Assembly (NCBI GenBank): GCA_023262145.1
Contig: JALRDR010000993.1
Location: 1 to 34,252, forward strand
Origin: Planctomycetaceae bacterium
Lineage (GTDB): Bacteria > Planctomycetota > Planctomycetia > Planctomycetales > Planctomycetaceae
Direction: 5' to 3'
DNA length: 34,252 nt
Shown here piece after piece: positions 1 through 32,558 of the stretch. The notes beneath the pieces were generated by a model. That model made no database searches and was not told the DNA's origin. It worked only from the letters and a program-made list of their open reading frames with translations. Each line of letters opens with the position of its first letter. Positions within the stretch are counted from its first letter, which is position 1. Position numbers and translations under genes: made by a program.

Positions 1-725
1 ATCACACCGGTTGCGATGCCCGGAAGCGCAGCAGGAATGACCTGTCGCCAGATCGTCTGCCAGCGCGTGGCTCCGAGCGCCAAAGAGGCCACTCGAATCG
101 AGGATGGAACCGCTCGCAATGCCTCCTGGGAAGCAATGATCACGATCGGCAGAATTACCAGACTCATCGTCATGGCGCCGATGAGTACACTTCCATCAAA
201 GATCTCCAGATGCAGAATCCGCACCCGGAATAACCCGAGGACGTTCACCACGCGAGTCCCGTCGAACAGTGACTGCAGTGACAGCATCAATGGACGAAAT
301 GCAGATAAACCCAGAATGCCGTAGACAATGGACGGCACTCCCGCCAGGTTTGAAAGATTGATCCGAATCAGCCGCACCAGCCACGTATCAGAGGCCATCT
401 CCTCCAGATAAACCGCCGAACCAACACCGATCGGAATCGAAAAGGCCGCAGTCAGCATGACCAGCCAGAATGACCCCCAGAGCCCGGCCAGGATTCCGCA
501 GCGAACCGGATTCATGGAGTAGTGATTGCTGAGAAAATCCGGAGCCAGTCGAGACAGACTGGTCCAGAACACCGAGCCCATCAGGATTCCCAGAATCCCC
601 AGTGAGGAATATGTCAGCACCAGACACACCACCCGAAAGATTCGGGATTGCAGCAACCGCCGCCGCAACAGGGAATCCGTCCCCTGACGAAAACTGACTC
701 GTGTGTCCTGCGCAGGAATACTCAT
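1..725 (-). CDS. pstA: Phosphate ABC transporter permease PstA (3' part cut by the window edge)
   Basis: Manual translation of the minus strand from ATG at 725 gives an uninterrupted frame to the window edge: [54 protein letters not shown]...[36 protein letters not shown]...[58 protein letters not shown], with the typical PstA permease EAA-loop. It is absent from the ORF track because its stop lies outside the window. The start overlaps the pstC stop (ATGA). Confidence 0.9.
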   Translation of the reverse strand, partial: [241 protein letters not shown]

Positions 726-1669
726 TGATATTCCTCCCGGAACTTTCTCAGAATCCAGCCGGATATCAGATTGATGACCAGCGTGAGCAGAAACAGGGTG
801 ATCCCGACCGCATACATGCTCATACGACTGATGGAATCTGCCGCACTGTCGCCGGTGCTGGCATGGACCATGAATCCCGTCATGGTCTGTGAACCCTCCA
901 ACGGGTTCAGCGACAGCATCGGACTGCCCCCGGCGGCAATTGCCACCGCCATCGTCTCACCAACGGCTCGCGAAAACGCCAGCAGAAATGACGCCAGAAT
1001 TCCCGAGAGTGCTGCCGGTACGACAACCTTCATGCAGACGTCGTATCTGGTACTGCCGAGCGCATGTGCTGCTTCGCGCAGGCTGCGCGGCACTGAACGA
1101 ATCACGTCTTCGCTGAGCGAAGCGATGAGCGGAGTCACCATGATTCCCACCACGATGCCCGCACTCAGACTGTTGAAAATCGACACCTTCAGATCCAGCC
1201 AGCCGAACAGCGGCTTGAGCAGCCAGGGGGTGACAAACTTCAGCGCAAAGAAACCGAACACGACTGATGGAATTCCCGCCAGCAGCTCGAGCACAGGTTT
1301 CAGGATCTGCCGTTCGCGAGCTCCCGCGTATTCACTCATGTAAATGGCCGCACCCAGCCCCGCCGGTATACTCACCAGCGATGAGATGACTGCAACCATC
1401 ATCGTACCCGACAGCAATGGCCAGATTCCGAATCGCCCTTTGGCCCCGTCCACAGGCTTCCACTGAGTCGAGGTCAGGAACTCTGTGAGCGTTACTCGCT
1501 CAAAGAATGCCGTCTTCTCGCCCGGAGCATAAATCGCGTTGCTGAGCAGCACATAGACAATCGCCCCCGTTGTCAGAACTGACAGTGCAGCGCAGACAAA
1601 CAAACCGACTTGAATCAGCTTTTCGTGGCGGCGGGAGGTGCTGCTGGAGAACGAAACTGAGGCCGACAT
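722..1669 (-). CDS. pstC: Phosphate ABC transporter permease PstC
   Basis: 315 aa with multiple TM segments; motifs GIPSVVFGFFALKFVTPWL, SVPRSLREAAHALGSTRYDVCMKVVVPAALSGILASFLLAFSRAVGETMAVAIAAG; sits between pstS and pstA. Confidence 0.93.
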   Translation of the reverse strand: MSASVSFSSSTSRRHEKLIQVGLFVCAALSVLTTGAIVYVLLSNAIYAPGEKTAFFERVTLTEFLTSTQWKPVDGAKGRFGIWPLLSGTMMVAVISSLVSIPAGLGAAIYMSEYAGARERQILKPVLELLAGIPSVVFGFFALKFVTPWLLKPLFGWLDLKVSIFNSLSAGIVVGIMVTPLIASLSEDVIRSVPRSLREAAHALGSTRYDVCMKVVVPAALSGILASFLLAFSRAVGETMAVAIAAGGSPMLSLNPLEGSQTMTGFMVHASTGDSAADSISRMSMYAVGITLFLLTLVINLISGWILRKFREEYQ

Positions 1670-1901
1670 AACTTACCCGGCAGAATGCGACAGCAGGATC
1701 GCTGCCTCTGTTGGACCGCACATCTGAACTGCAGGTGGACAGCTGATGGTCAAATACCGGCCAGCCTGTTTCACCCTACGGAATTCTGACAATGGAGATG
1801 CCGTCACGCACCCTCGCCGCTGCAAGTTGCTCTGAGTTCTCAATCACAATGCGACGGCCGCCCGGAGCAGTACCCCCGGGCAGATCGCCTGCTGCAACAA
1901 G

Positions 1902-2933
1902 TTACTCCGCCCCGGTGACTTCGCTGATTGCCGCTTCCAGTGCCTGCTGAGCCGATTTCAGTTCAGCGTCATCAAGCGGCACATACCCCACATCACTGAC
2001 CATCTTCTGCCCGTCAGTCAGGAAGAATCGCACGTAGTCCTGAACCTCCGGCTTCTTCAGGCTTTCCTTCTTTACGTAGATGAACAGCGGACGTGAAAGC
2101 GGAGCATACGAGCCGGATTTCACTGTCTCAGATGTCGGTGCAACAGCATCAGCCGGATCGTCGGTCGCAGAGATCTTCAACGCCCTGACCTTGTCCTGAT
2201 TGGCGTAAAAGTAAGCGTAGCCAAAGAATCCCATGCCGCCCTTCTCACCGGAGATCCCGGTGATCGTCACATTATCATCCGCACTGGCGCTGTAGTTCTC
2301 AGTGATCGAATCTTCTTCACCATTGATCTCCTCCGTGAAGAAATCGAATGTCCCGGATTCTTCCCCGGGGCCGAATAATGACAACGGCTCATCCGGCCAT
2401 GCCGCGTCAACATCCTTCCAGGTCCTTGCTTCACTTCCGGCAGCCCAGATCCGGTGGAGCTGACCTGTGGTAACAGCATCAACCCAGTCGTTCTCCTTGT
2501 TCACACAGACGGTCAGGCCGTCCAGAGCAATCCGCAGCTCCAGCAGCTCAATCCCATTCGCTGCACAGTCCGCCAACTCTGATTCCTTCACGCCACGAGA
2601 GGCATTGGCCACATCAATTCGGCCCGCGATCATTTCCTTGAACCCCGTACCGGATCCCGTCACCTTCAGAGCAACTTTGGTATCCGCAAATCGACTCTCA
2701 AATTCTTCCTGCACTGCAGCGGCCACCTTGGCCACAGTACTGGACCCATCCACCTGGATGCGACGAACCCCACTGCCGACCGCCGCCCCTGCTCCACCGC
2801 CGCCTTCTCCGCCGGCACTATCGACGGATTCCACGGAACACCCAGCACTCAAAATCGTCACTGAAAGCAGACAGAGAAAGCCGCTGATTACTCTTGCCCC
2901 GTGCGTTCGATACATTTCCCAGACCCTCATCAC
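1902..2933 (-). CDS. pstS: Phosphate-binding lipoprotein PstS
   Basis: 343 aa; lipobox-like LSAGC after a hydrophobic N-terminus; IQVDGSSTVAKV, TGSGTGFKEMIAGRIDVANASRGVKESE, PGEESGTFDFFTEEI and GMGFFGYAYF are typical of PstS. The real start may be the second Met at 2915. Confidence 0.93.
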   Translation of the reverse strand: MMRVWEMYRTHGARVISGFLCLLSVTILSAGCSVESVDSAGGEGGGGAGAAVGSGVRRIQVDGSSTVAKVAAAVQEEFESRFADTKVALKVTGSGTGFKEMIAGRIDVANASRGVKESELADCAANGIELLELRIALDGLTVCVNKENDWVDAVTTGQLHRIWAAGSEARTWKDVDAAWPDEPLSLFGPGEESGTFDFFTEEINGEEDSITENYSASADDNVTITGISGEKGGMGFFGYAYFYANQDKVRALKISATDDPADAVAPTSETVKSGSYAPLSRPLFIYVKKESLKKPEVQDYVRFFLTDGQKMVSDVGYVPLDDAELKSAQQALEAAISEVTGAE

Positions 2934-3012
2934 TACTGCCGGTACCTGTTCCCGGAACTACCGTGAACGGTTACACGTGCATCGCCACAATTCGATTCGC
3001 CGTAGTGAACCG

Positions 3013-3043
3013 CCTGATTGTTAAGGCTCTGTTAACAATCAGG
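3013..3043 (-). promoter_or_regulatory. Perfect 12-bp inverted repeat (7-nt loop) containing TTAACA direct repeats with 11-bp periodicity; candidate Pho-box-like operator upstream of pstS
   Basis: + strand cctgattgttaa-ggctctg-ttaacaatcagg. The minus strand reads TTAACA-GAGCC-TTAACA, 80-110 nt upstream of the pstS start. No U-tract follows on the minus strand. Confidence 0.5.
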
Positions 3044-3134
3044 ACAAGTGGAGACTTTGCGGAGAAATCCCCGCACAGAAGACCCGACAGCAATGTTGCT
3101 TCGTCACGCCATTTCCGCAGCAGCGGACTGCAGC

Positions 3135-7232: not shown

Positions 7233-9719
7233 ATGCGATTGTTCCAGTTCATCCTCCCTCTGCTGGCAGTCCAGCTGCTGGCTGTGCACGCTCAGTCCGC
7301 AGACCAGTACCGCATCCTTCCGGAACAGCTCACCCTGAATGGCCCGGAGGCCGTTCACCGGGTGCTGATCGAAGTCTGGAATGGCCAGGACTTCACTGGA
7401 ACTGCACCGGAATCACTCCAGCTGGTCAGCGACAATCCGCAGATTGTACGTGTGGAAGGCCGGCAACTCATCCCGCAGTCGGACGGCACCACAACCATTC
7501 GCGTATCCTCCGGGAATCAGTCTGCCACCGCTTCCGTCACCGTGCTCAATAGCGGCCAGCCTTTCCGCTGGTCGTTTCGCAATCATGTGGAACCCGTGCT
7601 GGCCCGGCAGGGTTGCAGTTCGGGGGCCTGCCATGGAGCCCTCGCGGGAAAAGGCGGTTTCCGCATCTCTCTTCGCGGTTACGACCCGGAAAAAGACCAC
7701 TTCAATATTGCCTGGCAGCAACAGGGCCGGCGCATCGAATTGCAGGACCCCGCCGCCAGTCTGCTGCTCACCAAACCTACCATGGCCGTCCCGCACAAGG
7801 GCGGCCTGCGGCTGGAACCGGGATCCCGCAAGTGGAAAATTCTGGCCGAATGGATTGCTGACGGAGCGGCACCGCCGACTGCAGACGATCCCGCACTCGA
7901 ACGCCTGGAGATTCTTCCTGAAGGTGTTCTGCTGGCTCCCGAGCAGTCGCAGCCTCTGCTTGTCAGAGCTCACTACTCCAATGGTGTCGTGGAGGATGTT
8001 ACTCAGCTCGCCCGCTTCTCCTCGTCCGCAGAAGCCGTCTGTTCCGTTGATGAAGACGGTCTGATCAGTGTTGTTGGCCCTGGTGAAGGCGCTGTGACCG
8101 CATGGTTCTCCAGCCGAATCGTCATCGCCAGCGTGACCGTACCGTGGCCGGCACCGCAGAACACGGCCGCTGCAGCCAGTCTGACCGCCAGCAATTTCAT
8201 CGACGAACAGGTGAACCAGCAGCTGCTGCGGCTGAACCTGCAGCCGTCTCCGGCCAGCACCGATGAGGTTTTCATCCGTCGCGCATTTCTGGACACCATC
8301 GGTACGCTGCCAACTCGTGAGGAAGTTGAGAAATTCCTCAGCAGTGACCTCCCCGATCGCCGTGAACAGGCCATCGATCAGCTGTTGCAGCGTCCCGAAT
8401 TCGTTGATTACTGGACCTACCAATGGGCCGATCTGCTGCTGCTGAATGGTCAGGAGCTGCGTCCCAATTCCATTCGCGCCTGGTACGACTGGATCCACGA
8501 ACGCGTGGCAGCAAATCAGCCGTGGAATCTGTTTGTGCAGGAACTGATCACTGCTCAGGGTTCCAGCAGCAGGAACGGAGCCACCAATTTCTTCGCGCGA
8601 CATCAGTCACCGGAAGACATGGCGGAAAACGTCAGCCAGGCATTCCTGGGCCTCTCCATCGGCTGCGCTCGCTGCCACAATCACCCCCTGGAAAAATGGA
8701 CCAACGATCAGTACTACTCCTTTGCCAACCTGTTTTCACGAGTCCGCGCCAAAGGCTGGGGTGGCGATTCCCGAAATGGCGACGGAGAACGAACGCTGGT
8801 CACCGTCAGTATGGGTGAACTCATCCAGCCACGAACAGGCCGGCCCCGAAGACCTGCGCCACTGGATGCTGAACCGCTTGAGTTCGACGCTGAAGTGGAC
8901 CGCCGACAGTATCTTGCGGAATGGCTCACATCGTCTGATAACACCCTCTTCGCACGCTCCATCACCAACCGCGTCTGGAAGAATTTCTTCGGAACCGGGC
9001 TGGTGGAGCCGGTTGATGACATGCGGGCTTCCAACCCCGCCAGCAATGAACAACTGCTGTCTGCGGCCGCTGAATACCTTGTCAGTCAGAACTATGATCT
9101 CCGCGCGCTGATGAAAGTCATCCTTATGTCGGATACCTGGCAGAGAAGCAGTCTGACTCTGCCCGGAAACGCCGGTGATCAGCGACACTACTCGCGCTAC
9201 TTCCCACGGCGACTGATGGCGGAAGTTCTGCTGGATGCCATCTCTGACGTCACTGCCGTTCCCACTCCGTTTAATCAGCTGCTTTATCCCGGGGGGGACC
9301 GTCGTGATACCGATGCCTATCCCGCCGGAACTCGCGCGATTCAGCTCCATGACTCCGCTGTTGATTCCTGGTTCCTGCAGACATTCGGACGCAATCAGCG
9401 CCGCATTACCTGCGAATGCGAACGCTCTGATGAACCCAGCCTGGTGCAGGTACTGCACCTTTCCAATGGTACCACCGTGAACGAGAAACTCGCCACTGCC
9501 GAAAACAATCTCTCACGCTGGCTGAATGACTCTGCAGACAACGACACTCTGGTCACCCACGTCTATCTGACCTGCCTTGCCCGCCAGCCACTTCCTGCTG
9601 AACGGACGGAAATTGTACGCATTCTGAACGAAACCAGTGATGCTGCCGAACGACGGATCGTTCTGGAAGATCTGGTGTGGGGTATTGTCAGCAGCCGGGA
9701 GTTTCTGTTCAACCACTGA
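7233..9719 (+). CDS. DUF1549/DUF1553 planctomycete-type secreted protein with Ig-like (Big_2) region and CX4CH/CXXCH motifs
   Basis: 828 aa; signal peptide MRLFQFILPLLAVQLLAVHAQS; GCSSGACHGALAGKGGFRISLRGYDPEKDH; DUF1549-like FIDEQVNQQLLRLNLQPSPASTDEVFIRRAFLDTIGTLPT...CARCHNHPLEKWTNDQYY; DUF1553-like LFARSITNRVWKNFFGTGLVEPVDDMRASNPASNEQLL. Confidence 0.9.
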   Translation: MRLFQFILPLLAVQLLAVHAQSADQYRILPEQLTLNGPEAVHRVLIEVWNGQDFTGTAPESLQLVSDNPQIVRVEGRQLIPQSDGTTTIRVSSGNQSATASVTVLNSGQPFRWSFRNHVEPVLARQGCSSGACHGALAGKGGFRISLRGYDPEKDHFNIAWQQQGRRIELQDPAASLLLTKPTMAVPHKGGLRLEPGSRKWKILAEWIADGAAPPTADDPALERLEILPEGVLLAPEQSQPLLVRAHYSNGVVEDVTQLARFSSSAEAVCSVDEDGLISVVGPGEGAVTAWFSSRIVIASVTVPWPAPQNTAAAASLTASNFIDEQVNQQLLRLNLQPSPASTDEVFIRRAFLDTIGTLPTREEVEKFLSSDLPDRREQAIDQLLQRPEFVDYWTYQWADLLLLNGQELRPNSIRAWYDWIHERVAANQPWNLFVQELITAQGSSSRNGATNFFARHQSPEDMAENVSQAFLGLSIGCARCHNHPLEKWTNDQYYSFANLFSRVRAKGWGGDSRNGDGERTLVTVSMGELIQPRTGRPRRPAPLDAEPLEFDAEVDRRQYLAEWLTSSDNTLFARSITNRVWKNFFGTGLVEPVDDMRASNPASNEQLLSAAAEYLVSQNYDLRALMKVILMSDTWQRSSLTLPGNAGDQRHYSRYFPRRLMAEVLLDAISDVTAVPTPFNQLLYPGGDRRDTDAYPAGTRAIQLHDSAVDSWFLQTFGRNQRRITCECERSDEPSLVQVLHLSNGTTVNEKLATAENNLSRWLNDSADNDTLVTHVYLTCLARQPLPAERTEIVRILNETSDAAERRIVLEDLVWGIVSSREFLFNH

Positions 9720-10067
9720 TAATCCTGCCCGAATGCTCAAAAAACAGGCATTCCGATCCTGCCCCTCGACATCACTGGTGTATTTTTGTCGAACTGCTGG
9801 TTCTGGCAGGCAGAGATTTCCCGGCCTGCACCTGCAGAACCCGCATCACGGTCGCCTCGAAAACAACTCCTGTTCTCAAAAGCGACCATCACTCCCGCGA
9901 AAGCCTGAGTTTGGTCTGTCGTTTGCTTCAGTCCCGAACCCTGCCGAAAGTTTTCAACCGGGAATTCCAATGGCAGCGGGCGGTCAACGGCTGACCTCCC
10001 GGGCGGCAAGCCGGATTCTGCTGCCTCCTGCCGCAAGGCCCATGCTGAACTCCTGAAAGGTCGTCGG

Positions 10068-11489
10068 ATGTCAGAAAATCAGATGTCTCCTCGCGAAGTG
10101 CTGGCATTGTGTCGGCAGCGGGAGATTCAGGCCATCGATCTTCGCTTCACCGATTTCTGCGGCTCCATGCGGCACTTTACAATTCCTGCCGTACAGCTGA
10201 CTGAAGATCATTTCGATCACGGATTTGCCTTCGACGGTTCCTCCATGCGCGGCTGGCAGGCTATTCACGAGAGTGACATGCTGGTGGTACCGGAATCTCA
10301 GACCTGCTTCGTTGATCCATTCATGAAGTCAACACTCGCCATGCTCTGCAATGTGCGAGACCCGGTTTCCCACCAGACATACCCTCGCGATCCACGCAAC
10401 ATCGCTCGCAAGGCAGAAGCCTGCCTGCAGGCGTCCGGCATCGCTGACCGGGCCCTGTTTTCACTGGAATCACAGTTCTTCGTTTTCAATAATGTCCGCT
10501 TCGATCAGCGCGAACACCACGGCTACTACCACATCGACAGCGATGAAGGTCAATGGAATCGTGGATCTGCGGTTTCCGGGGGTGGTAATTCCATTCGCCA
10601 TCGGGAAGGCTATCTGGCTCTGCCGCCCATCGACAGCAATCAGGATCTGCGGACAGAGATCATGATGCTGCTCCAGGAAAGCGGCATCATCACGGACGAC
10701 CACCATCATGAAGTTGCCTCCGGGGGACAGTGTGAACTTTCGCTGGCCGCTGACAGTCCGGTTGCGATTTCAGATAACCTGCAACGGCTGAAGTACCTTG
10801 TTCGCAACGTCGCTCATCGCCACGGTCGAACAGCCACGTTCATGCCCAAACCACTCTGCGATGACAATGGTTCAGGCCTGCACATCGGACTTACGTTGTG
10901 CCAGGGGGAGGACTATCTGTTCTGCGGGAGTGGTTACGGAGGCCTCAGCGAAACCGCCCTGTTCGCGATGGGCGGAATCCTCAAACATGCTCCCGCACTG
11001 CTGGCCTTCTGCTGCCCGACAACAAACAGCTATCGTCGCCTGACCCCCGGCTTCGATGCCCCCGTGAATCTCTCCTACAGCTATCGCAATCGCTCCGCAG
11101 CAATTCGCATCCCCGCCAGTTTCGGGGATGACTCCCGCCGCAGACTGGAATTCCGCTGCCCGGACGGCGCCTGCAATCCGTATCTCGGCACGGCCGCAAT
11201 TCTGATGGCGATGATCGATGGGATCCAGAATCGAATTTCTCCCGGTAAACCCCAGGATAAGGACCTCTACGATCTGGAACCGGAAGAACGACTGGGGCTG
11301 GAATGCACACCAGCATCACTCGACGTCGCCCTGCACGCACTGGAACAGGACCATGAATTCCTGACCCGCGACGACGTGTTTACACCCGACGTCATTGAAC
11401 ACTGGATCGGTCACAAGCGAGAAGCAGACATTCAGGAGATTCGACGTCGCCCGCATCCGTATGAATTTGCACTGTACTACGACTGCTGA
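10068..11489 (+). CDS. Glutamine synthetase family protein (type I), divergent at several catalytic positions
   Basis: 473 aa with GS-I layout: FDGSSMRGWQAIHESDM, HHHEVASGGQCE, FMPKPLCDDNGSGLH, TNSYRRLTPGFDAPVNLSYSYRNRSAAIRIP, LEFRCPDGACNPYL, KDLYDLEPEE. See findings for altered residues. Confidence 0.9.
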   Translation: MSENQMSPREVLALCRQREIQAIDLRFTDFCGSMRHFTIPAVQLTEDHFDHGFAFDGSSMRGWQAIHESDMLVVPESQTCFVDPFMKSTLAMLCNVRDPVSHQTYPRDPRNIARKAEACLQASGIADRALFSLESQFFVFNNVRFDQREHHGYYHIDSDEGQWNRGSAVSGGGNSIRHREGYLALPPIDSNQDLRTEIMMLLQESGIITDDHHHEVASGGQCELSLAADSPVAISDNLQRLKYLVRNVAHRHGRTATFMPKPLCDDNGSGLHIGLTLCQGEDYLFCGSGYGGLSETALFAMGGILKHAPALLAFCCPTTNSYRRLTPGFDAPVNLSYSYRNRSAAIRIPASFGDDSRRRLEFRCPDGACNPYLGTAAILMAMIDGIQNRISPGKPQDKDLYDLEPEERLGLECTPASLDVALHALEQDHEFLTRDDVFTPDVIEHWIGHKREADIQEIRRRPHPYEFALYYDC

Positions 11490-11703
11490 TCGGAAAGTCA
11501 CGGCGGGGCCTGGGAAAAATCTGCCGATCAACAGACCGATTCCGGATTCTGCCTGAGATTCCGGACGTTACTGAGAAACAGATCCTGCCAAACGACCATC
11601 CATGTTCTACAGTGCAGCACAGCGAAACGGGTTTCCTGGCAGAACCCTCCGCCTGTGATTTGCCCGGTTGAGCTCACGCCAACTCCGTTGCGGAAGATTC
11701 AGA

Positions 11704-12321
11704 ATGTCCTTTCCGAAACCGTTTTTCCGCTGGCGACCTCACCCATGGCACGGCCTCGAAGTGGGTCCCGAGCCACCCACGCTGGTCAACGCCTTCATTG
11801 AGATTTCTCCGTTCGACCTCGTGAAATACGAAGTCGACAAGGTGACGGGCTATCTGCGCGTTGACCGACCGCAGCGAACTTCCTCTCAGCCACCGGCACT
11901 TTACGGATTCATTCCCCGCACTTTCTGCGGCCATCGCGTTGCTGAACTCATGCCCAATGCTCGCCGTGGAGACTGCGACCCGCTCGACATCTGTGTGCTC
12001 AGCGAACGCCCCATCAACAAATCAGAAGTCATCGTTACCGTCCGCGTCATCGGTGGTCTGCCCATGCTGGATGGCGGGGAAGCTGATGACAAAATCATCG
12101 GCGTGCTGGCCCAGGACAACATCTGGTCGCACGTCGAGGACCTGGACGAACTGCCTCAGGCTCTGGTGCAGCGGCTGCGGCACTACTTCACCACGTACAA
12201 GACCATGCCGGGTGACCCCTCCACGCAGGTCTCCATCGATCGCATCTATGATCGGGCTCATGCTGAAAAAGTCATCCGCGCTGCGATTGCAGATTACGCT
12301 GATGAATTCGGGGATATCTAA
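11704..12321 (+). CDS. ppa: Inorganic pyrophosphatase (family I)
   Basis: ORF opens at 11668; ATG at 11704 ([18 protein letters not shown]) is the likelier start. [46 protein letters not shown] and HYFTTYK. Confidence 0.9.
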
Positions 12322-12362
12322 GCGTAGTCTGCGTTTCAGTTCTGCGGCCGCAGCACCTTAAT

Positions 12363-23093: not shown

Positions 23094-23846
23094 CTACCAC
23101 GCCAGCCCGGCGCCAAAGGTACCACCGAAGCCGTCTCCCCGCAGATCACCCAGCACACCACCACGCAGAAAAAGATGCTCACCCAGCCACGCCACAATCT
23201 CTGTACGCCAGATCGAATCACGAAACTGATCCTTGGTTTCGATATTCAGCTGACTGCGCCAGAAGATATCCTCATGCACCACCACTTCGACACCCGGATT
23301 CGCAACCAGACGATTGTCGAGTGAACCCAGGGTAATCCCCGGAATCTGCAGTCCGGTGTAACTGACACCCAGTGCACCGAAACTGGTCCCCAGCCCCAAC
23401 TGCAGAAATGGACGCACATCCTCATTCAGATACACCCAGGTATTCAACCCGGTGCTGAAGGATCGTGCCTCATAATCGATATTGAAGCCCACAGGTGGTC
23501 CGATGGACGGGTCCGGGGCCATCTGACCGCCAGGAATACTGTAGCCCCCGTTCAACCATGACGTGTTAATAAACACATCCTGCCCGATGTACTCCGGCAG
23601 GTGTCGGTTCCATCGCGCCGGTACGTTGAAGCTGGTCAATGCACCATCGATATCTCCGGTCAGATCACCGTTGCGACCACCACTGAACCAGACATACTGA
23701 ATGTCACTATAGTGACTGCCAAGCAGGGATGCCGGATGAGTTTCATCGTCTGCATACTGGGTCCAGTCATTGTGTGTCTGAGCTGAGACAATTGCCGGAA
23801 ACAGACACAGCAGCAGGGCGATCAGGCAGCAACTCAGATTACGCAT
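23094..23846 (-). CDS. Exported protein, possible outer-membrane beta-barrel
   Basis: ATG at 23846 begins a signal peptide MRNLSCCLIALLLCLFPAIVSAQ; alternating aromatic/glycine pattern and a C-terminal aromatic (GFGGTFGAGLAW). Confidence 0.65.
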   Translation of the reverse strand: MRNLSCCLIALLLCLFPAIVSAQTHNDWTQYADDETHPASLLGSHYSDIQYVWFSGGRNGDLTGDIDGALTSFNVPARWNRHLPEYIGQDVFINTSWLNGGYSIPGGQMAPDPSIGPPVGFNIDYEARSFSTGLNTWVYLNEDVRPFLQLGLGTSFGALGVSYTGLQIPGITLGSLDNRLVANPGVEVVVHEDIFWRSQLNIETKDQFRDSIWRTEIVAWLGEHLFLRGGVLGDLRGDGFGGTFGAGLAW

Positions 23847-24323
23847 CGGCAGGATATCCGCAGAAGATCTTCGCTTCGGGAGGTACGCCGTACACTCCAG
23901 AACCACAACAACCGCCGTCGGCACCGTCGGAAACTCTCCGACAAACGCAGCGGCAGACCCCACCTTAGTTCTGATTCAGCCCTCACGTGAAGGTCACTGC
24001 CGGAGAATTGACCGCGCTGCCGCTGCAAACACCTCGTTGAAACGGCATGATCTGCCGGAGCCATCGAAATGCGGCGGTTTTCGAGCAGTTCTGGCCGAAA
24101 TAACACACTCCACAAGCCGGCCACCGGGCAGCCACAAGACTCGTCTGACAGGAATCGAACTCACCTGACTCTTTGTGAAATGAGATCCTCAGCGCTTTCC
24201 CCAGGGTCTCGCTGGTGAATGCTTCTGACTCAGCACACTTGTCCCCGACATCGCCAGCTGTGAATACGGCAGGCTGCACTTCAGCCCGGATTAGCCTGCC
24301 AGAACAGCGCCACGTCTGCTCCA

Positions 24324-24790: not shown

Positions 24791-25750
24791 TCAGGCCTTG
24801 CGGCAGACAACGGTCTGCATCGCCAGATTGAGTGATCGCTCAAACAGCATGATCGGACTCAGCAATAATTGACCGAGCGCATACGGGTAGATCGCTCGGC
24901 GGAGATTAAGTCCTTTGCCACCCTTGAGCAGAAAGGCTGTTCCTGCAAACAGGTAGAAATAAGCGGGAAAAGCTCCCCATGGCAGATGCTCCACAAGCTC
25001 CAGGTCCGTTCTTTCCATCAGCTGGAGCAGATGTCTGCGGGAATACATGACAGTGTGCTGCGGTGCCTGCACCCCCGGCCATCTTTTGCCGAACAACCGA
25101 TAGGAAACACAGTCCAGACGCGGTACTTCAATCACCAGGTGACCGCCCGGTTTCAGCAGTCGCTCAGCGGTCTGAATACTCCGGACAGGATCATAATCGT
25201 GCTCAAGAAAATGCCACATCGTGATCAGATCAAAGCCGCCCTCCGGAAGATTCTGCTCATAGAACAAGCCGTTATGCAGCGTGACACCTTCGTAGAACGG
25301 CAGATGCGACAGATCCTTGAAGTCAACGCCTGCTGCCTGGACTCCGTACTTCTTCCGCAGATGCTGCAGGAACGAACCTGATCCGCTGCCGACGTCCAGT
25401 ACTGAGCACTGCTGATCCAGCTGCAGATAACGGGAAACGAGCGCGTCCTTCTGACGGTCATGCTTCTGCATTCCACTTTCATAAAACCTCGTCAGCAGGC
25501 CCCAGTTGTTCTCCTTTCGATGCGCGATGTACTCATCGTCGTACCATGCCCCGATGTGTTCGATCTTCAGTCGTGGATTCTGATATGCCAGCCCGCAACG
25601 ATTACAGGTGACGAACCGGAAATCACCAGGCTTCCCGGTGAGATCATCCTGTCCGAAGAGCAGTTCTGCGGAATCATCTGCTCCACAGTTGTAGCAGTTC
25701 ACCGACTCAAACTGGTCCACTGATGGTGCTGCCTGCATCTGTTTACCCAT
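24791..25750 (-). CDS. Class I SAM-dependent methyltransferase with N-terminal zinc-ribbon-like CxxC pair
   Basis: ATG at 25750 (MGKQMQAAPSVDQFESVNCYNCG...CNRCGLAYQNPR); SVLDVGSGSGSFLQHLRKKYGVQAAGVDF; FDLITMWHFLEHDYDPVRSIQTAERLLKPGGHLVIEVP. The ORF extends to 25810. Confidence 0.9.
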   Translation of the reverse strand: MGKQMQAAPSVDQFESVNCYNCGADDSAELLFGQDDLTGKPGDFRFVTCNRCGLAYQNPRLKIEHIGAWYDDEYIAHRKENNWGLLTRFYESGMQKHDRQKDALVSRYLQLDQQCSVLDVGSGSGSFLQHLRKKYGVQAAGVDFKDLSHLPFYEGVTLHNGLFYEQNLPEGGFDLITMWHFLEHDYDPVRSIQTAERLLKPGGHLVIEVPRLDCVSYRLFGKRWPGVQAPQHTVMYSRRHLLQLMERTDLELVEHLPWGAFPAYFYLFAGTAFLLKGGKGLNLRRAIYPYALGQLLLSPIMLFERSLNLAMQTVVCRKA

Positions 25751-25794
25751 CGTTAAACCGCAAAAAAATGACACCCGGATGCCCGGGGACATGC

Positions 25795-26427
25795 TTATTC
25801 CATGATCCACATGAACAGAATGCTGCCTCCCAGCAGCACGCCCTCTGCCACGGCGATCTTCCGTCCGGTCGACTGCGATCGCAACTGAGACTCACTTCCC
25901 AGTTCCCAGAGACACACCATCAGGTAAACGCACAGTGCAGCTGCAGTCATTTGCAGTCCTGTCAAACCGCGACCAAGCGCAACCGTGAGCAGAATAAACG
26001 GATACTTCAGCAGCAGCAGATGATACGACACGAACGGATTCGAGCATCGTTTTCGAATCCGATACCACAGTGCCAGTAATCCACAGAGCCCACTGAGCAG
26101 TATCCCGGACGTCCAGCCGAAAGACAATCCGGCACCCGCCACGATCACTATCAGGCCTGATGCCAGAACCACGGTCAGGGCTCGATGGTATTTCGTGTCG
26201 GAAAGTCCGTGTCCAGGCCTGTGAAGGCGATCAAGTTCCGCATCCTGCAGGTCATCCCAGAGTCTGAACAGGGCGACAAAACCAGACAGGAAGAACCAGT
26301 CCTCCGCTGCATTCCATGGAGAATCGTCTGTTGCCCACAGCCGGATGGATCCCCACAGAAGCAGCACCAGAAGCATGATCCGCGGCACCAGAATTCGTGT
26401 CTCCAGCCAGCGGCAGAAATCAATCAT
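25795..26427 (-). CDS. UbiA-like prenyltransferase family integral membrane protein
   Basis: ATG at 26427 (MIDFCRWLETRILVPRIM...), several TM segments, FRLWDDLQDAELDRLHRPGH resembles the UbiA Asp-rich motif. ORF extends to 26505. Confidence 0.7.
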   Translation of the reverse strand: MIDFCRWLETRILVPRIMLLVLLLWGSIRLWATDDSPWNAAEDWFFLSGFVALFRLWDDLQDAELDRLHRPGHGLSDTKYHRALTVVLASGLIVIVAGAGLSFGWTSGILLSGLCGLLALWYRIRKRCSNPFVSYHLLLLKYPFILLTVALGRGLTGLQMTAAALCVYLMVCLWELGSESQLRSQSTGRKIAVAEGVLLGGSILFMWIME

Positions 26428-29110
26428 CGCAGATTCGGACAATTCCGAGGTCTCCATCAACAAGGACGTGATCACCCGTGGCAAACCGCTTTGTCGCATC
26501 GGCAAGCCCGACTACAGAGGGTATGCCAAACTCCCGCGCGAGGATTGCGCCGTGCGAGAGCATTCCTCCGCGCTCCATCACCAGCCCTCGAACAAGGAAC
26601 AGGACCGGTCCCCAGCCAGGATCTGTCTGGCAGGTAATCAGAATGTCTCCCTCCCGAACCTCCGCAAACTGGTCCGGGCTGTCAAGCACAACGGCCCGGC
26701 CACGAACTCTTCCTCCGCAGACTCCGATTCCACCATCGGCCACTCCGGGGGCATGCCCCACCTCGTCATTCTCCCGGGAATTCCAGTATTCACCAATCCG
26801 TAGCCGAATCCGATCGGGCGGCCTGACTGCTTCCAGACTTCTGATCTCCTCAGCTCGCTGTCTGGCGATCCCTGCAACCGTTCCGGGCAGCATGCAGTCG
26901 CCGCGCAACAGCTGCTGGACCTCATCCCATGTCAGAAAGAGTGTCGAACTCGGTTCTTCAAGTATCTGCCGCTGCACGAGTCGTTCCCCGACCTGCAGGG
27001 CCAGCCGCCGCAGTCGCCGGTAAAGCAGAGCCTGCTTCAGCCGCGCACGCTCGCGAAGCATCACACTCCGCTGAGTCCATTTCAGAAGCCTGTTCGCTAC
27101 GCTGGAAACTCGCAGCAAGGGAAACCAGCGAACCATGGATTTTCTCTTTAATTCGCCCATCAGCTGACGCGTCTCTTCTTCCCGCTGCAGCGATCGTTCC
27201 ATCGCTCCGTCATGTGGCGCTGTTCCCTCACGCGAAGCATACGAAGCGATGATCGGGATCAGCATTTCCGGCTGCTCCTGATAACACGGACGACTCAGCA
27301 TCAGTTCTCCTGAACAGCGGAAACCCCATTCATCGATGAAACGGTTCAGCTCGTCTCGCACGGCGCTGAACCGCTCATCAGACTGAATTCGGTCCCAGCT
27401 TTCCTTTGCTGAACAATTCTCCAGCAGGCTGGTGAGTTCCGGGGATTGCCTGATCGATCGCGAAAGTTGCCAGAGTTTTTCCGCTGGCAGGCCACTGACG
27501 ATCCCTGTCAATCCACTCAGCAGCCGATTCACAAGCGCGCCGTCGTTGCCATCCACCCGGGCGTAACGACGAAGCAGTGATGATGTCAGTTGATAGCTGA
27601 TCATGCTCGCTGCATCCGCCAGTGACGCTGAAGTCCAGTTGCTGCGGATCGAGCGAAACTCTTCCCAGCACTCCCGCAGGTCCTGATCGCTGAGCTCACT
27701 CAATCGCTTTGGACTGGTCCGTTCCGCGAATGCATCGATTCTCGCTTCGAATTCCTGCACCCCCTGCTCCACTCCACGCAAACACCATACGGCGTGCCAC
27801 GCAATTCGTGTAAGTTCAAGCAGTTCGACGAGTCGATTTGAGGACAGGGTCTGCCAGCTTGCAAATTCCCGATTCCTCCGTGTCGACTCAGCCCCGACAA
27901 ACAGATTGAACGATGATGCAAGGAATTCTCCGAGTGGGGCGGCACGAAGAACGGCATGAATGTTGGTCAGGTTGTAATACAGTCGACCAGCCTGTGTCCC
28001 AACGATCTGTCGCAGGCAGGAATCCATCGCAGCGATTCGCCGACCACTGATTCCAAAAGCCACAGCGAGATTGCGGAAGTAGTGGTAGTAACCACACGAA
28101 GCTACTGAATAGAGCAATGGACAGATCGGCCCCGGATAATTCTCATTGACATTGGCGTTTGACCAGAGAACCGTAGCCACACCCGACTTCGTTGCGGTAA
28201 TCGGACGACTCTGCACAAGACAGAGCTGCAGCTTCCTGTCCAGGCACCATTCAATGTCCTGAGGCCCGCCAAATAACCTCTCGATGGACCGCCCAACTTC
28301 CACTGTTCGCTTCAGAAACTCCCGCGAAACCTCACCGCTCACCGCACTCTCGGACTGGCTGAGGACTTCTCCGGTATTCCAGTCCAGACAGACACGCTGT
28401 GGCACAATGGCCCCCGAAACCAGTCGCTCAGCAGTTCCCGAACAGTATTCAAGAAGCATCTCTTCGCTGACGTCATCCGCCGGATTCTGTGTAAATAACA
28501 CCCCCGAAACCACAGCGTCCACCTGCTCCTGGATGATCACGCCCATGGTTGTCAGTCTTACCGATCGCGCGTTCTGGTAGCACAGGGAACGATGAGACCA
28601 GCAGGATGCCCAGCAGCGTCGAACTGCCAGCAATACGTCGTCCGAACTATGGCAATCCAGAAAACTGTCCATCAGCCCCGCGAATGCTGCATGCTCCGAA
28701 TCCTCTCCGCGAGCAGAACTTCGAACCACCACCGGGCCGGCTGCCAGCAACGGCTCGAAACTCTCCGACAGACACCGCCGCTCAGCGTCCGAAAAATTCA
28801 GGCCAACGAACAACTCCTCGATCTGCCGTGCCGCCGCTTCGGAGTCACCCCGGTCAGTACCGGCTGCCGACTCAAGAATCCGGTCGATCTGCTGCCGCAC
28901 CCCGGTCCGCTCCAGAACGTCGTCCAGAAAACAACAAGGCACGACAACAGCCCCTGGTACCTGCAACCCGTGACGCAGCATTTCCGCCAGTCGATATGCC
29001 TTGGCGCCGGCTGTCTCTGCATTGGGGATCGCGGCGGCGGGAAGCAGAGTTGTGAGCGTTGCAACCGTCATTCGATTTTCATCCAGACAACACACCGGCA
29101 GATTCCACAC
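26420..29110 (-). CDS. PEP synthase/PPDK-related dikinase with N-terminal ATP-binding domain and C-terminal mobile phosphohistidine domain (rifampin-phosphotransferase-like order)
   Basis: 896 aa; GAKAYRLAEMLRHGLQVPGAVVVP, VVVRSSARGEDSEHAAFAGLMDSFLD, IEWCLDRKLQLCLVQSRPI, SNANVNENYPGPICPLLYSV, and C-terminal ERGGMLSHGAILAREFGIPSVVG. The start may be internal (MTVATL). Confidence 0.85.
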   Translation of the reverse strand: MWNLPVCCLDENRMTVATLTTLLPAAAIPNAETAGAKAYRLAEMLRHGLQVPGAVVVPCCFLDDVLERTGVRQQIDRILESAAGTDRGDSEAAARQIEELFVGLNFSDAERRCLSESFEPLLAAGPVVVRSSARGEDSEHAAFAGLMDSFLDCHSSDDVLLAVRRCWASCWSHRSLCYQNARSVRLTTMGVIIQEQVDAVVSGVLFTQNPADDVSEEMLLEYCSGTAERLVSGAIVPQRVCLDWNTGEVLSQSESAVSGEVSREFLKRTVEVGRSIERLFGGPQDIEWCLDRKLQLCLVQSRPITATKSGVATVLWSNANVNENYPGPICPLLYSVASCGYYHYFRNLAVAFGISGRRIAAMDSCLRQIVGTQAGRLYYNLTNIHAVLRAAPLGEFLASSFNLFVGAESTRRNREFASWQTLSSNRLVELLELTRIAWHAVWCLRGVEQGVQEFEARIDAFAERTSPKRLSELSDQDLRECWEEFRSIRSNWTSASLADAASMISYQLTSSLLRRYARVDGNDGALVNRLLSGLTGIVSGLPAEKLWQLSRSIRQSPELTSLLENCSAKESWDRIQSDERFSAVRDELNRFIDEWGFRCSGELMLSRPCYQEQPEMLIPIIASYASREGTAPHDGAMERSLQREEETRQLMGELKRKSMVRWFPLLRVSSVANRLLKWTQRSVMLRERARLKQALLYRRLRRLALQVGERLVQRQILEEPSSTLFLTWDEVQQLLRGDCMLPGTVAGIARQRAEEIRSLEAVRPPDRIRLRIGEYWNSRENDEVGHAPGVADGGIGVCGGRVRGRAVVLDSPDQFAEVREGDILITCQTDPGWGPVLFLVRGLVMERGGMLSHGAILAREFGIPSVVGLADATKRFATGDHVLVDGDLGIVRICDD

Positions 29111-29116
29111 GCCGAC

Positions 29117-29662
29117 TCAGGCAAACCGATTTCTTAACCTGAGTCGCCAGAGCACAACATTGACCGCAAGATGCAGAATTCCACCAATAAGTATGAGCAA
29201 TAAGCAGACGGTCACAGGAAGACTGATCACCAGGGAAACTGCAGCCAGTCCTCCGATGGTCGAATCAACCTGGTCGACAAGAAAAAAAAACAGCTTCGAA
29301 AACCGGTTTGCAGCAGCAGCACCCGCGGGAATATCAAGCTGCCTCTTGATCAGCGAATTCGGCAGCTCACCAGCCATAAATCCCAGTCCACCAAGACAGC
29401 CAATGAGGAAATACTCCCCCGAACTCAACGGCCATGGCGCCGCATCAACCACATCCCAGACCAGTGACATCAACAGACAACTGCAGCCCGACGCCGGAAT
29501 CATCACCACGAAACCACGCCACGTCTTGTTGTCGCCAAACAGACGCCGACCCCGCAGACAAATGCCTGCATCAATCGGAATGGCCCACGCTCGAGCCGTT
29601 CGACTGTGCAACCAGATCGTCTGCACAAGTCCACCCAGCAGAAATGTCAGCGCCAGAAACAT
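29117..29662 (-). CDS. CDP-archaeol synthase (CarS/DUF46)-like integral membrane CTP transferase
   Basis: ATG at 29662; IPIDAGICLRGRRLFGDNKTWRGF, GGLGFMAGELPNSLIKRQLDIPAGA...FFFLVDQVDSTIGG resemble CarS motifs (PID.G....R.LGDGKTWRG; GD...S.IKRRL; DQ.D...G). ORF extends to 29824 but that overlaps the upstream gene. Confidence 0.78.
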   Translation of the reverse strand: MFLALTFLLGGLVQTIWLHSRTARAWAIPIDAGICLRGRRLFGDNKTWRGFVVMIPASGCSCLLMSLVWDVVDAAPWPLSSGEYFLIGCLGGLGFMAGELPNSLIKRQLDIPAGAAAANRFSKLFFFLVDQVDSTIGGLAAVSLVISLPVTVCLLLILIGGILHLAVNVVLWRLRLRNRFA

Positions 29663-29714
29663 CGTGGCTGACAACGTACTCTCACACAGATCCAACCCAC
29701 ATCTCCAGTTCAGT

Positions 29715-31565
29715 TCAGAAATCGAAACCAGTCTGAGAACGGTTCTGAAACAGGAGTATCTCTGCTCGCGTTCGCTTTGCTGACCAGACCCACTTCCACC
29801 ACGGAATACAGTTGGGCAGCTCACGATGGTTCAACTGATGCAGATAATATCCCGGCACCCGCGGAAACTGATGATGCAGGCCATGAGCATCAAAGTTGAG
29901 CAAGAACAGGCGCGCAAACCAGCCCGGGAAGATCAGGGATCGTGTGAAAACAACCTGCTCACGCGGCAGAAATGCCCGCGCGTCTTCTCCCGCCGCAACC
30001 TTCATCGGGATGTGAGTATGCTGACTCAGAATCAACAGGTCCTGCATCACAAGCGTTAAGTAAATCGCCGGAAAAATCGCCCACAGCACAGTCTCCCAGC
30101 CCACCACGACAATCACCGTCAGGTACAGCAACGCATAAATCGCTATATTCCACATCAGGAGCCGACGGTCCTGATCCCGTGGAAACAGCCGCCACAGCCG
30201 TACCGGATTCCAGTAGTTCCCAATCCTGTACATCGTGGCAAAAAATGGAATCCACAACAGCCAGCAAAGATTCAACACCGCCTTCTCATACCAGGCAAGC
30301 TGACGTGGGACGAGCGATTCTGTCGTCATATCCAGATCCTGCCATCCGGTCCAGTAATGGTGCCTGGCGTGCACAATCCGCCAGCAGTCACCGGGGATCA
30401 GAGCAAAGAAGCCGGCAATCCAGGCTGCTGTACGATTCAGTCGTCGAGTTCTCAGCAGAGTCTTGTGCCCCGACTCATGCAGGATCGCGAGCCATTGCAG
30501 AAGATGCAGCGACAGCAGCAATTGTCCGCACAGCCAGTACTGCCATTCGTCACGCAGTGAAAGCATCACCGCCAGTGCGGTGCCCGCCAACGCAAACAAC
30601 AGATAAAAACTTCCCCATAAGTTCGACGGTGTTGTGGAAACACCAGGCTCCGAGGACTTTTCTTCTGCGGAGTGCACATCTTCCCGGTCGCCGTACCCAG
30701 ACAACTGCGACCTGTCGCTGAGGACAGGCTGCGCGCCGGACCGTTCCACAACACACTGCTGGACGGCATCCGATTCCGCTTCCGCCGCATCGAGATGCTG
30801 CCGAAAAACAGATTCCAGCCGAGCCATGAAAACGCGTGATTTCTCCTCAGGATCCCGCCGAACCAATGGCAGAATCTTCAACCCGATCAATCCCGGGCGA
30901 ACCAGTCGCAGACTTTGCTGACGTGGCAGGATCTGTCTGGCACCGGAAATAACAATCGGCTGCACGTCCGAACCAGTCTGTCCCGCAAGCACCGCAGTTC
31001 CACGATGAAACGCCTGCAGTGAATCGGAACGTGTTCCCTCCGGAAATATCACCAGCCATTTGCCCGACCGAAGAACTTCCCGGCACTGCCGAAGGCAATC
31101 GGCTGGCTGCGCAGGATCAACCGCAACCCCTCCAATGCGTCGCAGCACATGGCGAACACCGAAGTAACCGAAGTACTTGGGATTTGCGGCAAATACAATC
31201 GGGATCTCAAGCGCGTACAGCAGGGCCAGCTGGTCAAACCATGAGGCATGATTGGCCACAATTACGGAGACTGAATCTCGATTCAGATTCTCAAGCCCCT
31301 GCAATTGAACCTCAATTCCGAAGGTCCGAAATGAGATTCTTAATGCCCGACGAATTAATCCTCGAAAAGCTGCTTCAGACTTGTCACGTTTCAGAACCGG
31401 CAACAGGAACAGGAAGTAGCAGAACAAAACGTGGTAAACGATAAATCCCCACAGACCCGACAGTCTGCTGCGATCAGCGTCACTGCTACGCGACAGCATT
31501 GCGTTCAGATCATTCCGCATATCAGTCCTGAAGTCCCCTGACGGACGATCGGCTTCATCGGACAA
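29715..31565 (-). CDS. Fusion: N-terminal PlsC-type 1-acylglycerol-phosphate acyltransferase plus C-terminal membrane fatty acid desaturase/hydroxylase
   Basis: 616 aa; PlsC motifs VANHASWFDQLALL and IFPEGTRSD; desaturase histidine boxes HESGH, HARHH, QHTH and HGLHH in one uninterrupted frame. Confidence 0.9.
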   Translation of the reverse strand: MSDEADRPSGDFRTDMRNDLNAMLSRSSDADRSRLSGLWGFIVYHVLFCYFLFLLPVLKRDKSEAAFRGLIRRALRISFRTFGIEVQLQGLENLNRDSVSVIVANHASWFDQLALLYALEIPIVFAANPKYFGYFGVRHVLRRIGGVAVDPAQPADCLRQCREVLRSGKWLVIFPEGTRSDSLQAFHRGTAVLAGQTGSDVQPIVISGARQILPRQQSLRLVRPGLIGLKILPLVRRDPEEKSRVFMARLESVFRQHLDAAEAESDAVQQCVVERSGAQPVLSDRSQLSGYGDREDVHSAEEKSSEPGVSTTPSNLWGSFYLLFALAGTALAVMLSLRDEWQYWLCGQLLLSLHLLQWLAILHESGHKTLLRTRRLNRTAAWIAGFFALIPGDCWRIVHARHHYWTGWQDLDMTTESLVPRQLAWYEKAVLNLCWLLWIPFFATMYRIGNYWNPVRLWRLFPRDQDRRLLMWNIAIYALLYLTVIVVVGWETVLWAIFPAIYLTLVMQDLLILSQHTHIPMKVAAGEDARAFLPREQVVFTRSLIFPGWFARLFLLNFDAHGLHHQFPRVPGYYLHQLNHRELPNCIPWWKWVWSAKRTRAEILLFQNRSQTGFDF

Positions 31566-31772
31566 AGACTGTGCATCAGCACCTTCTCAGAGCGATTCGT
31601 GACTACCATCACTGTCTTTGCTCGTTCGCATGCGATTTTCACGCCAGTTGCAGCCCATGCTGCCCGACCAGAGCACTGGAGAACTCTGTGACACAGGCTA
31701 TCATAATTACTCATTTAATCTCACCATAGCCTGAAAATCAAATGCGGCCTGCTGCCCGTCGGATTACGACAA

Positions 31773-32558
31773 ATGTCCATGCACACCCTGCGCAGATTGT
31801 TCGTAGCCACCATTGGCCTCTTCGTCTTATTGTCGGGGGCCATCATCATGCTGCTGGTTGCCGTGGTGACATTGTTTCAGTCACGCAGGTTCTGCAGCGA
31901 AGTGATCGCCCGCATGATGGGTAAGATCGCTGTTCGTATCAGCGGTTTGACCGTCCTGCTTACGCCAGAGATGGCAGAACGTCTGCGCCAGGAAGATCGC
32001 TCAGTCATCTATATTGCCAACCATACAGACACCGTCGATTTGTTTGTTGTCATTTCTCTTGGCTTGCCGAACACCAGATATTTTCTCAGCGGTTTCCTCA
32101 GAAAACTTCTTCCGCTCGGTCTCGTTGGTTATCTGATCGGTGTCTTCTGGACAGCTCCCTACTCACAGCCTCACAAACGTCTGCGAATCTTCCAGCATGC
32201 CGATGACACACTGCGAAGGACCGGAGATTCCGTCTTCCTGACCCCGGAAGGCAGTCGGATCCGAACTGGTGAAATCGGGCACTTCAATCGCGGAGCTTTT
32301 CATCTGGCGACAAGCCTGAAACGCAACATCGTTCCGCTGTATATCCATGTGCCTGAAAATGTCGGTGCAGGCATGCAGCTGATCGCCGAACCCGGTCCTG
32401 TCTATGTTCAGGTCCTTCCGGAAATCGATACTTCGAACTGGACGCTGGAAGATCTCGATGCAAATCGAATGGCTGTTCGCCAGATCTATATCGACCATCA
32501 CAATCGAATCAGGACGAATGGCATCGAAGCCAGTCTGGCAGCAGAGTCCAATGGCTGA
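31773..32558 (+). CDS. 1-acyl-sn-glycerol-3-phosphate acyltransferase (PlsC family)
   Basis: 261 aa; N-terminal TM helix, IYIANHTDTVDLFVV (HX4D), FLTPEGSRIRTGEIGHFNRGAFHLA. Confidence 0.88.
   Translation: MSMHTLRRLFVATIGLFVLLSGAIIMLLVAVVTLFQSRRFCSEVIARMMGKIAVRISGLTVLLTPEMAERLRQEDRSVIYIANHTDTVDLFVVISLGLPNTRYFLSGFLRKLLPLGLVGYLIGVFWTAPYSQPHKRLRIFQHADDTLRRTGDSVFLTPEGSRIRTGEIGHFNRGAFHLATSLKRNIVPLYIHVPENVGAGMQLIAEPGPVYVQVLPEIDTSNWTLEDLDANRMAVRQIYIDHHNRIRTNGIEASLAAESNG

Follow-up and report, generated by a model that had tools for sequence, protein, structure and literature searches.

A conserved gene cluster of Planctomycetota joins a CarS-like protein and an RPH-type dikinase with predicted lipid enzymes

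The locus and its six gene products

The window analysed here is an entire contig (C518, 34,252 bp) of a draft genome, G000, with 1220 contigs, 94.8% completeness and 4.3% contamination. Given this number of contigs and this contamination, the contig may be mis-binned. The first-pass annotation described five packed minus-strand genes and a divergent PlsC gene at 24791-32558, and all six open frames are real. Five of the six have Pfam support, the exception being the UbiA-like protein:

24791..25810, minus strand: class I SAM methyltransferase with an N-terminal CxxC/CxxC zinc ribbon and a conserved hydrophobic C-terminal region (PF13489 4.4e-26)
25795..26505, minus strand: UbiA-like membrane protein (fold and motifs; window copy unmatched in Pfam)
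26420..29110, minus strand: RPH-type dikinase with ATP-grasp, acceptor domain and C-terminal swivel (PF01326 1.2e-50, PF00391 2.1e-22)
29117..29824, minus strand: predicted CarS-like CTP:lipid-phosphate cytidylyltransferase (PF01864 5.1e-17)
29715..31565, minus strand: PlsC-desaturase fusion, with an N-terminal PlsC-type acyltransferase and a C-terminal membrane fatty-acid desaturase (PF01553 2.5e-20, PF00487 3.2e-21)
31773..32558, plus strand: second PlsC-type acyltransferase, divergent from the other five (PF01553 1e-12)

The gene calls themselves stood, while homologues indicated that three starts had been placed slightly too far upstream; these were corrected to about 29662-29689 (CarS), 26457 (UbiA-like) and 25792 (methyltransferase). 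Spacing within the minus-strand set is operon-like, at 2 bp, a 38-bp overlap between the UbiA-like and dikinase genes, 6 bp and 52 bp, and a gap of 252 bp separates the fusion gene from the divergent PlsC. Promoter and terminator scans gave no greater signal than shuffled sequence. On the downstream side, an 827-bp gap separates the methyltransferase from a gene for a 289-aa protein without a Pfam match (23094-23963), which is outside the conserved cluster. At 3-2933 of the window, two ABC permease genes accompany one for a PBP_like_2 binding protein, a set reminiscent of a phosphate (Pst) transporter.

The CarS, UbiA, PlsC and desaturase assignments made at first pass hold in profile, motif or fold tests. 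Both PlsC copies in the window combine a PF01553 score with an NHxxxxD motif, seen as NHASWFD in the fusion protein (with PEGT) and as NHTDTVD in the second copy (with PEGS). The desaturase part of the fusion matches PF00487 and shows the three expected histidine boxes (HESGH, HARHH and HGLHH).

The CarS-like protein scored 62.9 bits against PF01864 (cut-off 22), and a profile of its family matched the CDP-archaeol synthase 5guf at 2.7e-07. Its GxxKT, SFVKR and D(Q/R)xD motifs align with those of 5guf and are also conserved in A5. The score against the NCBIfam CDP-digeranylgeranylglycerol synthase equivalog was below the cut-off (66 vs 148 bits), and we therefore assign the protein to the superfamily only and not to the archaeal equivalog. 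A CdsA-type protein was found above cut-off in 10 of 11 cluster genomes, so that CarS is an additional enzyme in them. The window genome differs from those ten: its sole CdsA-type match (C953) is sub-threshold, which probably reflects incompleteness of the assembly.

The UbiA-like protein, 220 aa long, differs widely from genome to genome (16-28% identity). The L139 homologue reached 24.3 bits against PF01040, below the cut-off of 34.2. Conserved motifs are FRxxDDxxDxxxD, KYP and ExxxD/E. UbiA superfamily proteins carry two Asp-rich motifs; in the window copy DDxxDxxxD starts at D68 and the second motif, ExxxE/D, at E185. The best PDB matches of its AlphaFold model (pLDDT 85) were two DGGGP synthases (6m31 and 7bpu) and an Aeropyrum UbiA homologue, each with a probability of 1.00, a TM score of 0.56-0.65 and an E-value of only 0.01-0.12. 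Since these are all UbiA enzymes, the model supports a UbiA fold. DGGGP synthase function does not follow from this modelled match: the protein is short and 13-14% identical to DGGGPS, and other UbiA enzymes are nearly as near.

The dikinase shows the RPH layout of ATP-grasp, acceptor domain and C-terminal swivel. In the NCBIfam search it scored 295 bits to RedH, 290 to RPH and 255 to PigC and also matched a PEP-synthase-like model, with all of the listed models far below their own cut-offs, including the rifamycin phosphotransferase equivalog (290 vs 999 bits). According to Pfam and the structural model, the protein terminates at the histidine swivel domain and lacks the pyruvate-binding barrel, on which grounds we rejected a PEP synthase reading. 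A profile of eleven dikinase relatives matched the RPH crystal sequences with an E-value of about 1e-120. The top matches of the AlphaFold model (pLDDT 79) were six RPH entries, aligned over the full length with E-values of 1e-25 to 1e-37; PEP synthase and PPDK structures covered it only partially. Phage matches to the dikinase were distant, at 24-33% identity.

The catalytic residues of RPH are His825, Arg666, Glu667 and Lys670 (PMC4844700). Their equivalents in the dikinase are H853, R686 and E687, with Arg690 in place of the lysine. Because the RPH active-site residues are conserved, we infer phosphate transfer onto a hydroxyl, so that the dikinase probably serves as a hydroxyl phosphotransferase and not as a PEP synthase. 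The first-pass term "dikinase-like" was thus right as to family, and residues and model refine it to a full-length RPH-type enzyme without the pyruvate domain. It shares with the RPH family the full-length fold, the C-terminal swivel histidine and the acceptor-site Arg-Glu pair (PMC4844700), but is only about 20% identical, forms a clade of its own and lies within a lipid-type operon. Judged by its sequence, it has RPH architecture but is no rifamycin enzyme, and rifampin is not an expected substrate.

Conservation and spread of the cluster

The first-pass annotation had named beforehand the point at which its proposal could fail, namely a lack of conserved co-occurrence of the genes in related genomes, and the proposal withstood this test. 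Genes for desaturase, CarS, dikinase, UbiA-like protein and methyltransferase occur together in eight other genomes (L193, L194, L138, L139, L140, L195, L141 and L152), all of them Planctomycetota, which span four families and at least two classes. Seven of the eight have a separate PlsC; the desaturase protein of L152 contains a PlsC part instead. The layout of L193 and L194 is exactly that of the window, down to the PlsC-desaturase fusion and the divergently oriented second PlsC. In L138, L139, L140, L195 and L141 the desaturase is a separate gene, as it is in L192 and L076, and the second PlsC is co-directional and follows the methyltransferase. The methyltransferase is 48-69% identical in the eight loci, while the UbiA-like protein of L152 is the most diverged and was assigned by position and motifs.

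Partial sets were found in three genomes: L192, L042/L199 and L076, a Burkholderiales MAG. Genome scans with the dikinase recovered a 45% identical copy adjoining CarS in L042 (Planctomycetaceae) and a copy in L076 preceded by desaturase and CarS. L199 has the UbiA-like gene without an adjacent methyltransferase or PlsC, and the genes beyond it differ. The window CarS-like protein is 28-46% identical to the copies in 11 other loci. Gene order persists in distant genomes, where most of the genes show a protein identity of roughly 30-60%, and the arrangement is therefore not due to chance.

We use type I for loci with the window type of cluster, counting the partial set of L192 among them. Type I dikinases form one clade with a support of 100/100, and 11 of 12 type I CarS proteins also form one clade, the exception being the long branch of L152. 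CarS and dikinase protein distances are correlated (Spearman 0.76).

Scanning 393 Planctomycetota genomes with a CarS profile gave matches in 16, and scans of two classes gave further ones. None of 17 congeners had a close dikinase, and the seven congeners that the class scan listed had no CarS match. Among 399 genomes of the phylum of the Burkholderiales MAG there was no match beyond that MAG itself, and a plasmid search for the cluster returned no CarS match. Copies are no more alike within a family than between families, which makes horizontal transfer likely. With 17 congeners lacking the dikinase as well, the distribution is patchy and the cluster probably a mobile one. Our literature search found no paper describing the cluster, or one combining CDP-archaeol synthase, fatty acid desaturase and gene cluster.

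CarS-dikinase pairs and accessory genes in relatives

CarS also lies directly beside an RPH-type dikinase without the other cluster genes in L142, L148, L149, L150, L151, L182, L196 and L197, and near but not beside one in L143 and L145. CDP-alcohol phosphatidyltransferase genes accompany them in L142, L143 and L145 (with a weak match in L196) and occur in the type I locus L192, where the best NCBIfam match is an archaetidylserine synthase, below cut-off. L142 and L143 additionally have a PS decarboxylase. The window cluster contains no CDP-alcohol transferase. In L150, L196 and L197 the pair lies beside an aminotransferase class III-reductase fusion, joined in L150 and L196 by a sulfotransferase and a type I phosphodiesterase; these three loci are a second, different type of CarS-dikinase cluster.

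Several type I loci extend further than the window cluster. The clusters of L138, L139, L140 and L195 run on into genes for an acyl-AMP ligase and for a protein that joins an ACP-thioester reductase to an APH-type kinase. L152 instead has an HMG-CoA reductase-APH-type kinase fusion (10039-12345), whose C-terminus is homologous to the ACP-reductase-kinase proteins of L138 and L139. In the window genome, matches to thioester-reductase domains are of partial length only. ElbD of the myxobacterial ether-lipid cluster joins acyl-AMP ligase, ACP-thioester reductase and PlsC activities in one protein (PMC9131029), and L138, L139, L140 and L195 hold these activities as separate genes. Unlike the ElbD system, the window cluster has no acyl-AMP ligase, ACP-thioester reductase or ElbD-like multidomain protein, and it adds CarS, the dikinase and the UbiA-like protein, with an APH-type kinase added in relatives. 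The hint of ether lipids thus stems from the relatives and not from the window genes. A candidate AGPS-type ether synthase near L152 was rejected, the flavoprotein being vanillyl-alcohol-oxidase-like.

In L193 and L194, a radical SAM gene of the Tes/TrsS family overlaps an Lgt-like gene just downstream of the cluster PlsC (L193:14870-17163 and L194:9153-11467). Its product matches 7tol at 1.1e-66. It differs from characterised tetraether synthases and TrsS in scoring below both NCBIfam cut-offs, higher for TrsS than for Tes, and a search of the window genome with this protein found no match. This pair could be a separate cassette or an extension towards membrane-spanning lipids.

L141 has PepM-like, split phosphonopyruvate-decarboxylase-like and Fe-ADH genes interleaved with its desaturase and CarS genes (119-3124 and 9701-10663). 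The signature of PEP mutase is EDKxxxxxNS; the PepM-like protein reads EDNPFPKECS instead and is below cut-off, and TIGR02320 finds no match in the window genome. We rejected a phosphonolipid product on these grounds and keep it as a lead only. Overall, the accessory genes of the relatives point to lipids, and to no single product.

A candidate lipid pathway and its alternatives

The first-pass annotation proposed a lipid cluster, possibly related to ether lipids, and abstained from claiming archaeol synthesis. A conserved cluster holding the parts of a lipid pathway is borne out in gene content, protein families, catalytic motifs, folds and co-occurrence. The abstention was justified: archaeol-type ether-lipid synthesis is not supported, as GGGP synthase was above cut-off in none of the 12 cluster genomes. 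With this result and the CdsA-type proteins of the other genomes, neither archaeol synthesis nor substitution for CdsA is the simplest reading. Compared with the archaeal polar-lipid pathway of GGGP synthase, DGGGP synthase and CarS, the cluster shares the CarS family motifs and a UbiA fold closest to DGGGP synthase, but lacks GGGP synthase and has bacterial PlsC, desaturase, RPH-type dikinase and methyltransferase. On balance, we lean towards the view that the genes encode a dedicated pathway, apart from housekeeping phospholipid synthesis and probably mobile by horizontal transfer, whose product would be a specialised phospholipid-like compound.

We infer the lipid substrate, the order of the steps and the hand-over from dikinase to CarS. 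The PlsC enzymes would acylate a hydroxyl-bearing backbone, and the di-iron desaturase would alter one chain. The dikinase would pass the beta-phosphate of ATP via its swivel histidine to a hydroxyl of the lipid or a precursor (ROH + ATP + H2O -> RO-P + AMP + Pi), and CarS would use this phosphate and CTP to form a CDP-activated lipid. A membrane transferase, UbiA-like in the window and a CDP-alcohol phosphatidyltransferase in some relatives, may then add a chain or head group from a diphosphate-activated lipid, and the methyltransferase may cap the product. The position of the dikinase ahead of CarS, with a head-group transferase following, is proposed mainly because some CarS-dikinase loci carry CDP-alcohol phosphatidyltransferases.

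RPH-fold enzymes act on varied small molecules, which counts against a lipid substrate. The cluster might make a specialised natural product: the dikinase would activate or ligate a scaffold in the manner of PigC or RedH, to be decorated by acyltransferases, acyl-AMP ligase and thioester reductase. The RedH and PigC scores close to that of RPH, the acyl-AMP ligase and ACP-thioester reductase of four relatives and the patchy spread would all fit. However, CarS, UbiA-like, PlsC and desaturase proteins are membrane-lipid enzyme types, and phospholipid head-group genes adjoin CarS-dikinase pairs in L142, L143 and L192, so that we regard this explanation as rather unlikely. Those same PssA-like and Psd genes near CarS and dikinase in L142 and L143, together with the sub-threshold CdsA match of the window genome, would agree with an ordinary phospholipid branch, where CarS replaces CdsA and the dikinase turns diacylglycerol back into phosphatidate, yielding PS/PE-type lipids with modified chains. 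This is improbable, as the other cluster genomes retain a CdsA-type protein, whose absence from G000 may reflect incompleteness, and the UbiA-like, methyltransferase and acyl-AMP ligase genes are left unexplained.

An archaeol-like isoprenoid ether-lipid pathway, with the UbiA-like protein as DGGGP synthase and CarS as CDP-archaeol synthase, would account for the first structural matches of the one (6m31 and 7bpu), the CDP-archaeol synthase match of the other and the HMG-CoA reductase-kinase fusion within the L152 cluster. The lack of GGGP synthase, the acyl chains implied by PlsC and desaturase and the short, barely similar UbiA-like protein make it very improbable. That the genes form no single pathway and adjoin by chance or for regulation is largely refuted and scarcely credible: despite the split parts of L199, eight distant genomes share the set with tight or overlapping spacing, and type I dikinases are monophyletic.

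A bolder and less likely possibility is a new class of bacterial lipid, for which an RPH-type lipid kinase would supply a CarS of the archaeal type and a transferase with the UbiA fold would use a diphosphate- or CDP-activated chain, the chains perhaps being cross-linked in relatives carrying Tes/TrsS. If true, bacteria would in this way arrive at archaeal-like or hybrid lipids with no need of GGGP synthase. The conserved coupling of CarS to an RPH-type dikinase would give RPH-fold enzymes a role in lipids and CarS a bacterial function. Planctomycetota are suspected makers of unusual ether and membrane-spanning lipids for which the responsible genes are unclear (PMC11868695). The cluster is a concrete, testable candidate, and the loci of some relatives also hold acyl-AMP ligase, thioester reductase or Tes/TrsS genes.
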